Shown here piece by piece: positions 55,719 to 64,000 of a DNA stretch of 64,000 nt; positions within the stretch are counted from its first letter, which is position 1; each line of letters opens with the position of its first letter. The notes under the pieces are model-generated. The model did no database searches and was not told the DNA's origin. It was given only the letters and a program-made list of their open reading frames with translations. Where the stretch lies: contig JAJRRU010000003.1 in the NCBI GenBank assembly GCA_024279135.1, positions 124,001-188,000 on the forward strand, read 5' to 3'. The DNA is from Alphaproteobacteria bacterium. Lineage in GTDB: Bacteria > Pseudomonadota > Alphaproteobacteria > Rhodospirillales > Casp-alpha2. A program made the position numbers and the translations under genes.

Positions 55719-56315
55719 TTATAGAAAAAGCTCGCCTTGTGGCGGCGGATCGACAGCATCTTCCATAACACAAAGATCATTGCCTTCATAAGGTTTAAGT
55801 AGCCTGGCGGCATTATTAAATGTCACACCGGGATCGAGCCACGCCGTTTCGGCTGATCGTGACAGGATAACGGGCATCCGCCCATGCACCGGGGCCATGA
55901 TCTGATTGGCCGCACAGGTGATAATGGTAAAGTGCGTGTCGCTCATCAGTCCGGCAAAACCCATGAAGGCGGGCTGATCCTGATCAGTCAGAAAAATACG
56001 GTTGCGATAGCTTGATTTACCGTCTTTTCGCCATTCGAGGAACAGGGTCGCCGGGACAATACAGCGGTGCTCCAGAAAGGGCTGGAAACTGGGTTTTTCA
56101 GACAGTGTCTCTGCCCGCGCATTATACAGTGGCTTGGCGTCCCAGGTTGCCGGAAACCCCCATGACAGCAGTCGAACCACGCGAGATGGTTCTATCACAA
56201 CAGCCATGTCCGTTGGTTTGGTTTCTGTATTATGGGGTCTGGTAAGTTCACCCGATACATCAAACCGTTGCTTGATTTTGCTGGTCTTGGCATCAAGTTC
56301 AAAACGACTACACAT
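55719..56315 (-). CDS. SRAP-domain protein (YedK/HMCES-like)
   Basis: 198 residues. The catalytic Cys2 directly follows the initiator Met (MCSRFELD), as needed for the thiazolidine crosslink with abasic sites in single-stranded DNA. Further active-site blocks are NARAETLSEKPSF, RCIVPATLFLEW and HGRMPVIL. It protects abasic sites at replication forks. It is 24 bases upstream of the aminotransferase gene. Confidence 0.93.
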   Translation of the reverse strand: MCSRFELDAKTSKIKQRFDVSGELTRPHNTETKPTDMAVVIEPSRVVRLLSWGFPATWDAKPLYNARAETLSEKPSFQPFLEHRCIVPATLFLEWRKDGKSSYRNRIFLTDQDQPAFMGFAGLMSDTHFTIITCAANQIMAPVHGRMPVILSRSAETAWLDPGVTFNNAARLLKPYEGNDLCVMEDAVDPPPQGELFL

Positions 56316-56391: not shown

Positions 56392-57132
56392 ATGAGTGAA
56401 GACCGTAAAACAGTTATTATTACCGGCGCCAGCCGCGGTATCGGGCACTATACGGCCCGCTGCTTTCTCGATCGCGGGTGGCGGATTATTACTTGTTCGC
56501 GCGATGCGGTTCCCGAGGAATGTCTGCGCGATAAAAACTGGACCTGTCATTTGCCCACCGATCTGGGTGATGGAGACAGTGTCCTGTCTTTCATCGATCA
56601 GGTCAACGAGATCGTCGGGGACGGGGCAATTCATGCGTTGGTGAACAATGCGGGTATGTCGCCCAAAACGCCCTACAAGGAACGCCTTGGCTGTCTGAAT
56701 GGGGATCTCGATGCGTGGAAAGACGTGTTTGAGATTAATTTTTATGCCGCCCTGCGCCTGAGCCGCGGATTTGCCGCTGCCCTGCACCGGGGCAAAGGGG
56801 CGATTGTCAATGTGACGTCCATAGCGGGCCACAAGATACATCCCTTCGCAGGTTCAGCCTATTCCATCTCAAAGGCCGCATTATCCGCCCTGACCCGGGA
56901 AATGGCCGATGAATTTGCCGCTCTGGACGTGCGGGTTAATGCGGTGGCTCCCGGTGAGATCGAAACCGATATGATCGAGCCCGAATACGAGGCCCTGATC
57001 CCGCGTATACCGCTTGATCGCATGGGCTCGCCGGCCGATGTGGCCGGGACGATCTATTACCTGTGTTCGGACGATGCCAGTTATGTTACCGGCACGGAGA
57101 TTTGGGTAACCGGTGGTCAACACCTGTTCTGA
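56392..57132 (+). CDS. Classical short-chain dehydrogenase/reductase
   Basis: 246 residues. TGASRGIG binds NAD(P), NNAG is at about 84-87, and the catalytic set is Ser in NVTSIAG, Tyr and Lys in YSISK. It ends with the usual VTGTEIWVTGGQH. The substrate is unknown. Unlike the SDR at 10874 it has an intact active site. Confidence 0.9.
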   Translation: MSEDRKTVIITGASRGIGHYTARCFLDRGWRIITCSRDAVPEECLRDKNWTCHLPTDLGDGDSVLSFIDQVNEIVGDGAIHALVNNAGMSPKTPYKERLGCLNGDLDAWKDVFEINFYAALRLSRGFAAALHRGKGAIVNVTSIAGHKIHPFAGSAYSISKAALSALTREMADEFAALDVRVNAVAPGEIETDMIEPEYEALIPRIPLDRMGSPADVAGTIYYLCSDDASYVTGTEIWVTGGQHLF

Positions 57133-57290
57133 CCCCCCATCAGCGCGAAATCTGCACCAGATATGGTGTTTATCCACAGAAATCAGACTATATTTGCCAT
57201 ATCTGCTTCCATGAGTCGGGTCATGTGTGTAAGATATGGCAGCCTGCGGGCCTTGATTTTAACCCATAAACCAGATGATGAGGCAGTGTG

Positions 57291-60200
57291 ATGGCGGATA
57301 AACCCACCAACACGGGAAACGTACAGAAACCCACCAAGGTTGATAATAATTCAAGCGACGCGGATAAAATACGCCGCGAGGGAGGCTATGATCACGCACT
57401 CAAAGGCGGTCTCGGTGATGGCCTGACGGCTGATTTTGAGCGGATCGGAGCGGATATTACCACACCGCTGGTCGGCCAGGATTGGCAACCGCCATTCCTG
57501 ATGCGTTATCATATTCCGGTATATATTGGAGTCTTACTGAGCCTTGGTTGGGCATACCTGTCCTATGGGGGGATCGAGTTATATCTGGGCTGGGGAAATC
57601 TGAATATATTATTGCCCCACGAAATGGGTGGTCTGGCCGTTGGTGTGGTGACACCCCTGGCGTTGCTGTGGATGGTCGTGGCTTTCTTTGAACGGGGCCG
57701 TTCGTTGCGATTTGAAACGGAATCCCTGCGCTGGCAATTAAAACAACTGGCCTTTCCGGGCGAACAGGCCGAAGAGCGTCTGCGTTCCATCACCGATTCC
57801 CTGCGCCAGCAAGCCCAGGATTTAACCAAGGCATCAGATACGGCGTCCAGTCAGGCCGCCACGGCTGCCGATGAAGTCAGACGCCGTTCCATCGAGCTTT
57901 CCCAGGTTTCGGAAGATGCCGATTTACGGGCGCGAGCCGTCTCAGAAGCCCTGAAACGTCAGACCGAAGACCTGCGTGATGTCTCGGGCCGAGCGGTTGA
58001 ACGGGCACGTGAAGTGGGTGATACCTTGTATGAACGCTCGCAAAACCTTGTGACGTCTTCTGACCGGGCCTCTGCGCGGGCTGAGACACTGAACGAAACA
58101 TTGCGCGAGCGCAGCCAGGATATGTTGGAAATCGTGAGCCAGGCAACCACCAGCACGGAGCAGACAACCCAGAATTTTGTCGAACGTGGTGAACGTTTTG
58201 CCGATGTGGTTCGCGAAACCATCAGCCACACATCCCAGGTGGGCGAGGCCCTGTCAGAAAAATCTGATGCCCTGGTGGCCCATGTCCGCGAAGCTTCGGA
58301 GAATTTCGATATCAGTATCAAATCCATCGCCGAGTATTCAGAGGAATTTGAGCGTCGCAGTGAAAATACCGCCCGACAAACCGAACTACTCAACTCCATG
58401 CTCGCAAACCAGAAAGATGCCCTGGACGAAGCGGCTGATAATTTACAAAACAAGGCGCATGACATTGAAGGCTCAATGGGGCGTCAGACAGATGATTTGC
58501 GTAGCGTGACGGACCACGCTCTTGAACGTGCTATTGAGGCCGGTGAAATGCTCAGCGAGCAGACCCAAAACATGGCGGTATCGTCGAACCGGGTTGCTGA
58601 AAATACCAACGCCCTGAATGACACCTTGCAGGAACGCAGCCGTGAACTGCTTGAGGTTGCCGCCCAGGCAACCGCCCATACGCAAAAAACCACCGATGTA
58701 TTCGTTGAACGCGGCGATCATTTTGCCGCGGTCATTAATGAAGCTCTCAGCCGTTCTGAACATGTAGGCACCCAATTATCCTATCAGGCCGATGCTCTGT
58801 TAGGCCATGTCCAGGGTGCTGCGGATCATTTTGATGAGAGTACAAAATCTATCGTAAAACATTCGGCAGAAATGGAACGACAAGGCGAGGCGGCGTTGCA
58901 ACAATCTGAAATGCTGAAGGGTATGCTCAGTGATCAGCAATCCACCCTGGGCGAAGCAGCCGAACAGATGAGCCGTAAGGCCAATGAGATTGAAGGATCA
59001 TTGGGACGCCAGACCGAATCCTTGCGCGATACCACCGAAGTTATCTCGGAAACCGTTCGTGACACGGTTAATGATCTGGAACGCACGACCCGTAATTTAC
59101 AGGGCGCTACCTTGCGTGCCAGCGACCGGGTACGGGTTGTCGGTGATGAGTTTCGCCGCCGCATAGCCGAGGTCAATACCATTACCAAAGACGCCGAAAC
59201 CGGCGTATCGGCCGTGACATCGGTGCTTGAAGGCAGTGCAGAGAGTCTGGCGACCATCAGTGATCGGGTTATTGGCGAAATGGACCGGGTCGGTGATGAA
59301 TTACAGAAACGGGCTAATCAACTGGATGTGGCATCAAGCGAGGCCTCCGTACGTGTTCGCAGTTCAACTGAAACCCTGGCCCAGCAGGCCACAGATATTG
59401 AGCGCATTGCCAATGCAACGGAATCCCGCCTGTCCGAGGTGGGCAATACCCTGCGCGAGCGTTCAACGGAACTGGACGGGGCAACGGAACGGGCCGAATT
59501 CAGGATCGGCAAACTCAATACGGAATATCGCCAGCAGGTCGAGACGCTGGAAAATGCCACGGAGCGTGGCATTGCCCATGTCCAGAAAGCGACCCACAAT
59601 CTACGCCTTTCCACGAACACCATCACCGCTTCATCAAGCCAGACCCGTGATGTGGTGGATGGATTCCGTGGCCAGCTTGATGATATGGGCCAGATGGCCG
59701 AACATTTGACGACCCGCCTTCAGGAACTGGGCCAGACGGTCGGTGAGCGATCCCAGGAAATGAAGCATCAATCCAGTGAAATGCTCAACCGTGTGTCCAG
59801 TGCCAATGCATCGTTGGGCGATCATGGTAAACGGTTGGTTGAATTATCGGATCACCTGACCTATACGGCTGAAAAAGGCATGGCTGGTTTTGTCACTCAC
59901 GCCGATGAACTGACCATGACAACCGATAAGGTGGAAGGCCGGCTTGAAGGCATTTCCAGCGTGATCAGGAGCCATCTCGGCGGATTGCTGTCTTCGGCAG
60001 ATACCGCGGCTTCAAGCATTACATCGTTGGGTGACATGCTGGAGACCAGAACCGGTGATGTAACCCGCAGCACCGATGCCGCCGTACAGGAAATTGGCCG
60101 ACTGGATGATAGTTTGCGTCAATCATCGCGGGAACTTATTTCATCATCGGATCGCTCCGCCAGGCTTTTGGGGCTTGTGGGCGATGCCTTCGACAAACAG

Positions 60201-62000
60201 GTGTCGGGCTTGAATACGGCGACCGATGCGGCGACCATGCGAGTTACCGAGTTGACGTCACGGGTCCATGATGAAGCTGCGTCTATCGAACAGAGCATTA
60301 ATGCGACCGAACAACAGATGACCAAATCGGGCGAGAGCATGATTGTTCATGCCAAACAGCTCGAAGACATCAGCGAAGCCGCCTCTGCCCGCATCAAACG
60401 TGTCAATGATGCCCTGCAATCCAATATCACCGAGATTTCAAGAGCAGCCAAGGTTGCCGTACAGGCCGTCGGTATAACGGGGACTACAGCGCGTGATGAA
60501 CTGGCCAGGACAACCACCGTATCGGATGATGCCAGCGAACGGCTGAAGGCCGTAACGGAGTCCATAAAGCACTATGCCGCTAATCTGGATGTCACTCTGG
60601 GTCAGTCGGAAAACAAACTTTCCCAGGTCGGTGAATTGTTGCAGACCCGTTCGAATCAACTGGACGAAACATATGAACGGGCGGTACAGAATGTGCAAAC
60701 ATTCAGCGCCCAGCTTCATGAACAATCCGTTGGCATCCAGGATGTCACGAGCAGCGCGTCCGAACGCCTGGAGAGCGTTGCCCTGGCCTTGCGTGAACGC
60801 AGCGTTGAAATCGATCTGGCTGTGGATAAGGCCAGCAAATTACTGGCCAGTGTCAATTCTGCGTTGCACGTGCAATCCAGCGATCTCAGCAGCACGTCTG
60901 AGCGGGCGGCATTGCATATGTCATCTGCCCGCGAAGACCTGAAACAGCAATCCTCGGAACTGGATATCACGGCGGCAAAAACGGCTGAAAGCGTCCGTGA
61001 AATCGGCCTGGCCCTGACTGCCCGGGTCGAGGAACTGGGCAAGGCCTCACTCACTACCAGCACCAGTCTGGCGGCCGCCTCGAAAATTATTGATATGCGT
61101 TCCAATGCCGTTGAAGAGACTTCCAAGCGGGCCGTTAACAGCCTGAACGGGGTTAGCGCGACCTTGTTGGCAAGCGCCAATGAGACCGTCGAGTCCATTG
61201 ATACAAGCACCAGCAAACTCACAGAAGCCGCCAAACAATTGCTCGACAACGCCATGAACACCGATACGCTGACAACCCAGATTTCGGGCAAGATGGTGAC
61301 GGCCAGTCATACGCTCAATCAACATATCCAGGGCGTCAGTGGAGCCGCCGGCAAGGCCGAAGAAAACCTGTCCAAAATGAGCCGGGTTGCCGTTTCCCGG
61401 CAACAGGAACTGGTCGCCGCTTCAGAAGATGCCTCGCGGCGATTAAAGGGCTGGGATCAGCGGGTCAAATCACACGCCGAAACCCTGCAAAACACCTCAC
61501 GTGCTGTCCTGAAACAGGTCGAACGGGCGTCATTGACCATGCAGAAACGCTCCGGCGAATTGCGTACGGTATCCGATGATGTGGCGGCGATGCTAAGCGA
61601 ATTGCGCGAACGTTCCGAACTGGTCGGTCAGGATGATTTCCTGCGCCATGCCACGTTTGTTATGGAGCGATTGCAATCTCTTGCCGTCGATATGAACAGG
61701 TTGCTTGAAACCGAAGTCACCGAAGAGGACTGGCGACGCTATAATCGCGGGGAACGCAGCATCTTCGTGCGGAAAATCCTTGGCTTCCGCGAAAAAAGCA
61801 AGCTGGCCGTTATCCGCGACCATTATCAGGAAGATCACGATTTCCGCAATTATGTCACCCGCTACCTGAAACAGTTCCATGCATTGGTCGAAGATTCCAG
61901 AAAGCGCGATCAGGATAATGTAATGAACACCATCTTGCTGTCATCGGATATGGGTAAGTTGTTTATGCTGTTGAACCGGGCACTGGGACGCGAGGAATAA
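57291..62000 (+). CDS. Giant membrane-anchored coiled-coil protein with 25-residue periodicity
   Basis: 1569 residues from ATG 57291, with GAGG about 7 bases upstream. Residues 1-70 are hydrophilic, and two membrane helices lie near 74-93 and 111-133. Residues about 150-1445 form a long helical rod rich in Ser, Glu, Ala and Gln. A 25-residue unit recurs with conserved Leu, an RS pair and an Ala/Arg half (L..RS..L...A..A..R...). Residues 228-402 and 403-577 are a 175-residue super-repeat, that is seven units. Residues about 1445-1569 look globular and charged. The plan resembles TipN-like alphaproteobacterial polarity or scaffold proteins, but the identity is not established. The convergent GDCCVxC gene abuts its stop. 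Confidence 0.85.
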   Translation: MADKPTNTGNVQKPTKVDNNSSDADKIRREGGYDHALKGGLGDGLTADFERIGADITTPLVGQDWQPPFLMRYHIPVYIGVLLSLGWAYLSYGGIELYLGWGNLNILLPHEMGGLAVGVVTPLALLWMVVAFFERGRSLRFETESLRWQLKQLAFPGEQAEERLRSITDSLRQQAQDLTKASDTASSQAATAADEVRRRSIELSQVSEDADLRARAVSEALKRQTEDLRDVSGRAVERAREVGDTLYERSQNLVTSSDRASARAETLNETLRERSQDMLEIVSQATTSTEQTTQNFVERGERFADVVRETISHTSQVGEALSEKSDALVAHVREASENFDISIKSIAEYSEEFERRSENTARQTELLNSMLANQKDALDEAADNLQNKAHDIEGSMGRQTDDLRSVTDHALERAIEAGEMLSEQTQNMAVSSNRVAENTNALNDTLQERSRELLEVAAQATAHTQKTTDVFVERGDHFAAVINEALSRSEHVGTQLSYQADALLGHVQGAADHFDESTKSIVKHSAEMERQGEAALQQSEMLKGMLSDQQSTLGEAAEQMSRKANEIEGSLGRQTESLRDTTEVISETVRDTVNDLERTTRNLQGATLRASDRVRVVGDEFRRRIAEVNTITKDAETGVSAVTSVLEGSAESLATISDRVIGEMDRVGDELQKRANQLDVASSEASVRVRSSTETLAQQATDIERIANATESRLSEVGNTLRERSTELDGATERAEFRIGKLNTEYRQQVETLENATERGIAHVQKATHNLRLSTNTITASSSQTRDVVDGFRGQLDDMGQMAEHLTTRLQELGQTVGERSQEMKHQSSEMLNRVSSANASLGDHGKRLVELSDHLTYTAEKGMAGFVTHADELTMTTDKVEGRLEGISSVIRSHLGGLLSSADTAASSITSLGDMLETRTGDVTRSTDAAVQEIGRLDDSLRQSSRELISSSDRSARLLGLVGDAFDKQVSGLNTATDAATMRVTELTSRVHDEAASIEQSINATEQQMTKSGESMIVHAKQLEDISEAASARIKRVNDALQSNITEISRAAKVAVQAVGITGTTARDELARTTTVSDDASERLKAVTESIKHYAANLDVTLGQSENKLSQVGELLQTRSNQLDETYERAVQNVQTFSAQLHEQSVGIQDVTSSASERLESVALALRERSVEIDLAVDKASKLLASVNSALHVQSSDLSSTSERAALHMSSAREDLKQQSSELDITAAKTAESVREIGLALTARVEELGKASLTTSTSLAAASKIIDMRSNAVEETSKRAVNSLNGVSATLLASANETVESIDTSTSKLTEAAKQLLDNAMNTDTLTTQISGKMVTASHTLNQHIQGVSGAAGKAEENLSKMSRVAVSRQQELVAASEDASRRLKGWDQRVKSHAETLQNTSRAVLKQVERASLTMQKRSGELRTVSDDVAAMLSELRERSELVGQDDFLRHATFVMERLQSLAVDMNRLLETEVTEEDWRRYNRGERSIFVRKILGFREKSKLAVIRDHYQEDHDFRNYVTRYLKQFHALVEDSRKRDQDNVMNTILLSSDMGKLFMLLNRALGREE
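57972..59021 (+). repeat. Two 525-base in-frame repeats inside the coiled-coil gene
   Basis: Unit one (57972-58496) and unit two (58497-59021) encode 175 residues each in direct succession. By hand alignment without gaps about 80 of 175 residues are identical. Shared landmarks are ERSQ/ERSR, a TT..FVERG segment, SDALV/ADALL and EGS.GRQT at the ends. A third unit begins at 59022 and soon diverges. Confidence 0.85.
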
Positions 62001-62454: not shown

Positions 62455-62895
62455 TCACAATTCTGTGATTTTTCGACGTAAAGCGGCAACCGGTGTGCGT
62501 TGGTCGATGGCGTGCTGGTAAAACAGTGAAAATTCTTTCATGGCTATTTTCCATTCACCCACTGCGTCATCGCCTGTAACCATGATGGCATCAAATCCAC
62601 AGCGTTGCAGGAACAGGTACTGATCGCGGATTATATGGCCAACCGCCCTGATTTCACCCATATAGCCGTATTGCTCGCGCAGTTGTCGAGCATAACTGAA
62701 GCCGCGCCCATCACTGAAAACCGGGAATTCAATGGCTACCACCGGGATCTGGTCCAGATATTCGGCGATGCAATCGGGTGGTGTGTCGGGACCAAGCTGG
62801 ATCCCGGCGCTCTTGTCACCGTCATTTAGCCACTCCTCCACAGGGCTTACGGCAATGGGATCGGCGACTATTTCACCGTTCTTAAGCACGGTCAT
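62455..62895 (-). CDS. DUF934 protein associated with sulfite reduction
   Basis: 146 residues from ATG 62895. EEWLNDGDKSAGIQLGPDTPPDCIAEYLDQIPVVAIEFP and FSDGRGFSYARQLR mark the DUF934 family, which is regularly found beside ferredoxin-type sulfite/nitrite reductase genes. The biochemical role is not known. It overlaps the reductase gene by 14 bases, so translation is coupled. cysH would be expected nearby but is not in view. Confidence 0.88.
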   Translation of the reverse strand: MTVLKNGEIVADPIAVSPVEEWLNDGDKSAGIQLGPDTPPDCIAEYLDQIPVVAIEFPVFSDGRGFSYARQLREQYGYMGEIRAVGHIIRDQYLFLQRCGFDAIMVTGDDAVGEWKIAMKEFSLFYQHAIDQRTPVAALRRKITEL

Positions 62896-64000
62896 AGAGG
62901 GCCTCCTTAAAGGGGGGAAGTCCGGTGCGTCTGAATGTTTCCATAAATGTTTCACCGGCATGGCGGATGGATAAATAGGTGTTGATAATCAGCTCAACCG
63001 CATCGACCACCTCTTCGGTGGGAAATGCGCGACCGACGATCTGTCCGATGGCGGCATCTTCAAAGGCGCTGCCGCCCAGGGTGATCTGATAATATTCCTC
63101 GCCCTTGCGATCGACACCCAGAATGCCGATGGCGGCAACGTGGTGATGGCCACAGGCATTGATACAGCCCGAAATATTCAGGTGCAGGGGACCGATATCA
63201 TGCTGCAGTTTCAGCTCGGCAAAGCGATGTGAGATACGTTGGCCAATGGGAATGGAGCGGGCATTTGCCAGCGAGCAATAATCCAGGCCCGGACAAACGA
63301 TCATGTCGCCAGCCAGACCGATGTTTGGTGTCGCCAGCTTGTTTTCAAGCAGGACCTGCCAGACCTTGAACAGATTGTCCATTCGCACGTTGGGTAGAAC
63401 AACATTCTGGCGATGAGTAACGCGCAATTCACCCAGGCTATAAAGCTCTGCAAGATCAGCCACCACGCGCATTTGTGCAGAAGTCATATCACCGGCGATG
63501 CCGCCAACGGGTTTCAGAGAGATACTGACAACCCCGTAACCGGGTTGTTTGTGCCCGCTGACCGAAGCGCTGACCCAGTCGGCAAAATCCTGGTTGTGGA
63601 ATTTCTCGACTTCCAGGTCACGGTTAAGGGCTTCGTGATCCAGGGGCTCGTATACCGGCGGCCTGAAGTAGGCTTCGATACGTTCCAGTTCGCCATCTGG
63701 CAGATTGTATTCCAGATGGCGTATTTTCTGCCATTCTTCTTCGACCCGATTGCGAAAATCCTCGATACCGGTCTCATGGATCAGAATTTTAATGCGCGCC
63801 TTATATTTGTTGTCGCGTCTGCCGAACTGGTTATAGACCCGCATGACGGCTTCCAGGTACGATAACAAATGCTGTTTGGGCAGGAATTCACGGATGGTTT
63901 TGGCGACCATGGGGGTGCGGCCCTGGCCGCCACCAGCGAGGATTTCAAAGCCGATTTCGCCCGCCTTGTTTTTGAGCAGGTAAATGCCAATGTCATGGAA
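62882..64000 (-). CDS. Sulfite/nitrite reductase haemoprotein, 5' end outside window
   Basis: The last about 372 residues of a siroheme-[4Fe-4S] reductase. The reading frame is open to the window edge and carries FHDIGIYLLKNKAGEIG and GGGQGRTPMVAK before the first internal Met at 63910, so the true start is beyond 64000. Cluster and siroheme ligands are CPGLDYC and SGCINACGHHH. The assimilatory six-electron reduction of sulfite to sulfide is favoured by the DUF934 partner. Confidence 0.92.
   Translation of the reverse strand, partial: FHDIGIYLLKNKAGEIGFEILAGGGQGRTPMVAKTIREFLPKQHLLSYLEAVMRVYNQFGRRDNKYKARIKILIHETGIEDFRNRVEEEWQKIRHLEYNLPDGELERIEAYFRPPVYEPLDHEALNRDLEVEKFHNQDFADWVSASVSGHKQPGYGVVSISLKPVGGIAGDMTSAQMRVVADLAELYSLGELRVTHRQNVVLPNVRMDNLFKVWQVLLENKLATPNIGLAGDMIVCPGLDYCSLANARSIPIGQRISHRFAELKLQHDIGPLHLNISGCINACGHHHVAAIGILGVDRKGEEYYQITLGGSAFEDAAIGQIVGRAFPTEEVVDAVELIINTYLSIRHAGETFMETFRRTGLPPFKEALYDRA

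Follow-up and report, generated by a model that had tools for sequence, protein, structure and literature searches.

A regular 25-residue repeat in a predicted membrane-anchored rod protein, a divergent relative of the GPR/RgsE growth-pole scaffolds

We analyzed a 64,000-nucleotide window of DNA (contig JAJRRU010000003.1) from an alphaproteobacterium of the order Rhodospirillales and found that one of its genes encodes a rod of 25-residue units, flanked by signals for membrane anchoring and by a conserved C-terminal domain; homology to RgsE is detected at both ends, and the rod length is conserved among relatives. On these comparisons the protein is a divergent homologue of the GPR/RgsE family of growth-pole scaffolds, and by analogy with those proteins it probably acts as a membrane-anchored coiled-coil scaffold for polarity or morphogenesis. 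Membership of the family was already known (PMC7327166), and the novelty, as far as the literature we searched extends, lies in the repeat, in its regularity and in its relation to the rod of RgsE; this search retrieved no paper describing the 25-residue repeat. A first-pass annotation, made from the sequence alone, had pointed to the repeat and had overlooked both the GPR/RgsE homology and a conserved 21-residue break in the register.

The rod gene (Table 1) has its best start within the open frame 57288-62000 (+) at ATG 57291, with GAGG 7 bases upstream, and it is single-copy in the genome as judged by its C-terminal domain. The two N-terminal membrane helices proposed in the first-pass annotation were recovered by both hydropathy and AlphaFold2, and a near-invariant motif, LPHE.GG....TP, lies between the two helices and in the second one in the alignment of relatives. 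The AlphaFold2 model of the N-terminal piece, built with 40 relatives, consists of the two membrane helices (helical segments at residues 75-99 and 109-154), a break at FPG and then one helix; the break reads FPG in the window protein and YPSD in most relatives, and the first stretch of the rod is an unbroken 172-residue helix that runs to the end of the modeled piece (mean pLDDT 83). Residues 160-1420 contain neither proline nor cysteine. The conserved C-terminal domain that had also been anticipated is present in the last 135 residues and is all-helical in a model of moderate confidence (pLDDT 69); it gave nothing above threshold against Pfam and no convincing match against PDB sequences, and its model retrieved no PDB fold at E ≤ 0.001.

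Table 1. Coordinates of the rod gene, its parts and its conserved upstream neighbor (positions in the window)
Feature	Positions	Strand	Description	Basis
SDR oxidoreductase gene	56392..57132	+	upstream of the rod gene, conserved same-strand neighbor	
Rod protein CDS	57291..62000	+	1569 aa plus stop; ATG 57291; GAGG at 57280-57283 as ribosome-binding site	
Membrane hairpin	57513..57689	+	TM1 ~residues 75-94, TM2 ~residues 115-133	hydropathy, AlphaFold2, alignment conservation
Neck, residues 135-170	57693..57800	+	helix break at FPG, residues 155-157	AlphaFold2 model
Repeat block 1, residues 171-770	57801..59600	+	24 units, each exactly 25 residues	
Two adjacent 175-residue copies	57963..59012	+	residues 225-399 and 400-574, 7 units each	
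Register break, residues 771-791 (LRLSTNTITASSSQTRDVVDG)	59601..59663	+	single 21-residue unit, conserved -4 shift	
Repeat block 2, residues 792-1416	59664..61538	+	25 units, each exactly 25 residues	
C-terminal all-helical domain, residues 1435-1569	61593..61997	+	also present in RgsE; no relative found in Pfam or PDB	

The periodicity of the rod is strong. Autocorrelation scored with BLOSUM, with z values measured against shuffles preserving local composition, placed the top lag at 25 (z 17.7), followed by 50, 75, 100, 125 and 150, so that the peak predicted in the first-pass annotation is present together with its harmonics. The hydrophobic period is 3.569, i.e. 25/7. In the SMC protein of the same genome, used as a coiled-coil control, the leading lags were 28, 14, 21 and 7, and lag 25 reached a z of 0.3. 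The units share the consensus L-x-x-R/Q-S/A-x-E/D-L-x-x-A-S/T-D/E-R-A-x-x-R-L-x-x-V-G-D/E-x, in which positions 1 and 8 carry large hydrophobics in 94-96% of units and positions 5, 11, 12, 15, 19 and 22, which hardly ever bear a charge, have small or hydrophobic residues. The spacings along this core (4-3-4-3-4-3-4) add up to 25 residues, or two heptads plus one hendecad, and the almost uncharged core positions (1, 5, 8, 11/12, 15, 19 and 22) thus bear out the 7+7+11 pattern that had been suggested.

A single register through the entire rod is ruled out by a 21-residue unit, and this one unit is the reason why a fixed register brings no more than 21 of 52 units into phase. The break was located by aligning 23 non-redundant relatives of identical rod length, which display 17 units, then one 21-residue unit, then 25 units. 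Once it was placed in the window protein, the best phase under a leave-one-out profile was zero in 43 of the 49 units (chance, 1 in 25), and the remaining six had their best phase at +/-7 or +/-11. The array as a whole comprises 50 repeats over residues 171-1416, and the "fifty-odd" 25-residue units counted initially turn out to be 49 full units and a single one of 21 residues; likewise, the exact 25-residue spacing claimed for them holds inside residues 171-770 and 792-1416, but not across the conserved shift of -4 between these blocks.

The rod of the window protein exceeds the most frequent rod length among relatives by 175 residues, an excess accounted for by an ancient internal duplication of seven units, the two adjacent copies being 47% identical in protein and 59% in DNA. 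No 75-base tandem repeat was detectable in the DNA of the rod, and the repeats are therefore old.

The kinship to RgsE rests on both ends of the protein. In a plasmid collection, tblastn retrieved a Sinorhizobium meliloti match annotated as 'kinesin' in CP090106 (L140:3118-9387); at 2089 residues it has the published size of RgsE (PMC7327166), and we therefore read it as RgsE (SMc00190). The C-terminal domain matches it at 34% identity by tblastn (E 8e-18) and at 35% by hhalign (probability 99.8, E 1.2e-28), and the N-terminal hairpin plus neck aligns with the RgsE N-terminus with an hhalign E of 9e-6. Like the window protein, RgsE has two N-terminal membrane helices and a long proline-poor helical rod. 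Unlike it, RgsE has rod periods of 11/22/44 (leading lags 22, 44 and 11; hydrophobic period 3.655) with a z of only 4.7 at lag 25, and a Pro-rich linker ahead of the C-terminal domain; it also scores highly as an apolipoprotein. The record that carries RgsE, 3.7 Mb long, is labeled plasmid pSymB yet is chromosome-like. In S. meliloti (L140:2132-2500) and in Sphingomonas parapaucimobilis (L142:6649-6942), the rod gene has a small divergent gene upstream of it that is annotated as an Hpt phosphotransfer protein, an annotation that Pfam upholds for S. meliloti only.

Agrobacterium tumefaciens GPR (Atu1348, 2115 aa), 42% identical to RgsE (PMC7327166), has been described with two TM helices, a 1700-residue helix and an essential C-terminus, and the same architecture is found here. 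Reporter fusions place RgsE in the cytoplasm with membrane anchoring, and RgsA, RgsS and TolQ are named as its partners (PMC7327166). GPR assembles into a ring of six foci at the growth pole; deletions of its C-terminus block function, although rings can still form (PMC8262873). Distant RgsE homologues are known in Rhodospirillales and Emcibacterales, and a different role has been suggested for them in these orders (PMC7327166). Under the strict definition of PMC8262873, which asks for multiple PF01442 matches, the window protein is a homologue and not a GPR.

The match to PF01442 (apolipoprotein A1/A4/E) bears on whether the rod is a lipid-binding array. GPR has been described as an apolipoprotein (PMC8262873), RgsE scores 257.8 bits against this profile, and GPR has been proposed to bind lipid through amphipathic helices resting on the membrane. 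We regard the extension of this proposal to the window protein as very improbable: here the score falls to 20.5 bits for a cut-off of 90, and two other members with 25-residue rods score zero. Moreover, the hydrophobic stripe of the rod is narrow, its net charge is negative, its core positions are as regular as those of a coiled coil, and the HELIQUEST lipid-binding threshold is reached in only 9.6% of 18-residue windows (4.0% in RgsE). A 2752-residue member from an MreB-less family scores 245.5 bits; since high scores are found in this protein and RgsE, against 0-20.5 bits in the three 25-residue members, the match tracks the 11/22 periodicity and not the family. PF01442 matches are thus a trait of rod periodicity rather than a criterion of homology, and they are missing also in other members with homologous ends. 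By extension, the apolipoprotein likeness of GPR would reflect periodicity and not descent. The 25-residue repeat suggests that the rods of this family are coiled coils made from 7- and 11-residue steps rather than lipid-binding apolipoproteins.

The spread of the family over the class was surveyed with a C-terminal domain profile (the class-wide alignment A1 being too diverse for the collection scan, alignment A2 was used instead for that scan), which matched in 114 of 289 evenly drawn genomes (~40%). The open frames range from 330 to 2752 residues and the rods from about 150 to over 2400, and nearly all members carry N-terminal membrane helices, rod and C-terminal domain in that order. The 25-residue repeat is the commonest type of rod, and the 11/22-residue rod of RgsE a minority type: in a tree of the C-terminal domain, unrooted and with weak inner forks, the 25-residue label falls on 41 of 58 rows and is scattered over the tree, while the few 11-residue rods include a small supported clade with RgsE. 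Other lineages mix steps, with leading lags of 47, 58, 69 and 116. The 25-residue rod is likely ancestral in the family. Among the extremes, the 2752-residue member (L112:1432-9687) has periods almost purely of 11/22/44 in a genome without MreB, and short members of 330-377 residues (L116-L119, family f44) are almost rodless but retain both membrane helices, along with a C-terminal domain that has diverged. One genome (G253) harbors two long copies, of 1873 and 1610 residues (L107 and L108).

Within the order, the protein was found in 57 of 61 sampled genomes. All relatives that carry a name belong to the Rhodospirillales; marine metagenome-assembled genomes predominate, and the cultured Magnetovibrio blakemorei MV-1 is among them. 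In a first survey, every complete orthologue inspected had a leading lag of 25 or 50. Measured between fixed points at both rod ends, the rod is exactly 1144 residues long in 15 of 41 proteins in this first survey and in 29 of 63 complete relatives in a second, partly overlapping one. Eleven such rods, at 24-59% pairwise identity, align without gaps, zero shift being best in most 100-residue windows.

This constancy is the main argument for a molecular ruler or spacer, in which the exact rod length would set the distance from the inner membrane to the target of the C-terminal domain (~170 nm for 1144 residues). The 1144-residue rods occur in at least seven families of the order, and the 21-residue break is kept as well. 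Nevertheless, we hold the ruler to be unlikely. SMC is equally constant in the same genomes (1054 residues between conserved points in 24 of 30, median identity 55%), so register constraints can explain the constancy of the rod without any ruler; in addition, differences of as much as 220 residues separate close relatives, and rods in the class run from about 150 to over 2400 residues. For the distance-measuring role raised in the first-pass annotation, the high conservation of length therefore stands, but it is no proof of measurement. The accompanying length estimate of about 190 nm agrees with simple arithmetic, which gives 185-196 nm for a fully helical rod (1246-1319 residues x 0.1485 nm).

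Other rods differ from 1144 residues by -22, -7, +7, +11, +22, +44, +55, +66, +88, +110, +121, +175, +200 and +220, among others, i.e. mostly by 7, 11 or 22 residues and at times by whole 25s. Half of the distinct differences within 250 residues (11 of 22) are divisible by 11, against an expectation of 2, a post hoc count over lineages that are not independent. Steps of 25 had been expected between orthologues, but they are not the dominant way in which lengths change: clustering by phase shows no advantage for 25 over other periods, and within 250 residues the differences divisible by 25 are limited to +175 and +200. Inserts in some close relatives are hendecad-like arrays located at two sites. 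A spectrum of pairwise indel lengths was discarded, as self-similarity at lag 25 biases the aligner. A broader idea, that membrane-anchored rods with a conserved tip set intracellular distances class-wide, would have lengths built from 7- and 11-residue steps (25 = 7+7+11), fixed to the residue within lineages and changed between them mostly by steps that preserve the register, and hence a selected functional quantity; we advance it tentatively and think it doubtful.

Two further readings of the rod come from profile matches. An SMC-like coiled coil tethering DNA or the chromosome, instead of an envelope scaffold, is brought to mind by a weak match to TIGR02168 (27.8 bits for a cut-off of 567), and similar weak matches have been reported for RgsE (PMC7327166); with matches confined to the rod, neither ATPase head nor hinge, and a membrane anchor, the window protein is very unlikely to be of this kind. 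The tails of ZorA, from the anti-phage system Zorya, resemble the window protein as long helical cytoplasmic tails on a membrane domain, and PADLOC indeed reports a ZorA1 match of 68 bits. This match covers the tail only (profile positions 371-612 of 699; 57738-58481, residues 150-397), Pfam shows no MotA/ExbB/TolQ domain in the rod protein, and no ZorB-like gene is found among the adjacent genes examined. Besides, defense systems are patchy, and the rod protein occurs in the majority of genomes of the order and in many across the class, so that a ZorA-like stator-tail sensor is hardly credible. The ZorA1 tail match suggests a helix periodicity common to Zorya tails and these rods. An MCE profile match was set aside as rod-only or sub-threshold, and a phage tape-measure origin was rejected with no PHROG match.

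The neighboring genes are metabolic and give no pointer to morphogenesis. The SDR gene, 70-84% identical in relatives, lies upstream on the same strand in 49 of the 49 loci where it was found. Other genes separate it from the rod gene in about half of the loci, with a gap often of ~3.4 kb, which in Magnetovibrio holds genes for a LysR regulator, a universal stress protein and a TauE/SafE exporter. Given a generic oxidoreductase and these intervening genes, we claim no functional link between SDR and rod. Farther upstream, the 198-aa product of 55719-56315 (-), for which there is just a weak NCBIfam match, is read as an SOS-response-associated peptidase; many relatives also have this gene upstream of their SDR gene. 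On the other side, a DUF934 gene overlaps a gene of the sulfite/nitrite reductase type that runs off the window (62455-64000, -), and a few close relatives likewise have this pair beside their rod gene.

The cellular setting of GPR and RgsE is polar growth without MreB, and the window genome lies outside it. Rhizobiaceae with GPR/RgsE are without MreB (PMC7327166), whereas the window genome encodes a true MreB (E 7e-151); the Rhizobiaceae-like genomes G117, G217 and G297 gave only weak matches. The mutual exclusion of Rgs proteins and MreB suggested in PMC7327166 fails class-wide for RgsE homologues, which are mostly found beside MreB. PopZ is also present in the window genome and, with both proteins encoded, the cell is probably polarized and not reliant on MreB-less polar growth.

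In the scaffold that we favor, the two-helix hairpin would anchor the protein in the inner membrane with both ends cytoplasmic, and a continuous helix of ~1250 residues would form a coiled-coil rod of 25-residue units, ~185 nm if fully extended, that projects from the inner membrane or runs along it. The rod would be extended and assemble as a parallel dimer or higher oligomer, and the conserved helical domain at its far end would probably serve as the head that binds partners. As GPR and RgsE suggest by analogy, the protein may multimerize at the envelope, perhaps at a pole, and organize cell-shape or polarity functions, working beside MreB and PopZ rather than in the MreB-less polar growth of the Rhizobiaceae type. 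As its rod differs in periodicity from that of RgsE (25 versus 11/22), geometry and partners may differ too.

Long coiled coils of this general kind have precedents among polarity proteins. TipN, a polar landmark of Caulobacter, combines two TM helices with a coiled coil and is located at the pole, and is comparable in overall description. Scy and FilP, cytosolic polarity coiled coils involved in the polar growth of Streptomyces, have a long-period non-heptad repeat of 51 residues; the likeness concerns the non-heptad repeat, and we claim no homology.

So far, studies of GPR and RgsE have been confined to polar growers of the Rhizobiaceae, while the family is far wider and found mostly beside MreB. 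The hypothesis for its function shifts accordingly, towards a rod-and-tip scaffold rather than an organizer of lipids. For such a scaffold, the 25-residue repeat offers a simple unit for structural work, and the conserved C-terminal domain is the part to assay.
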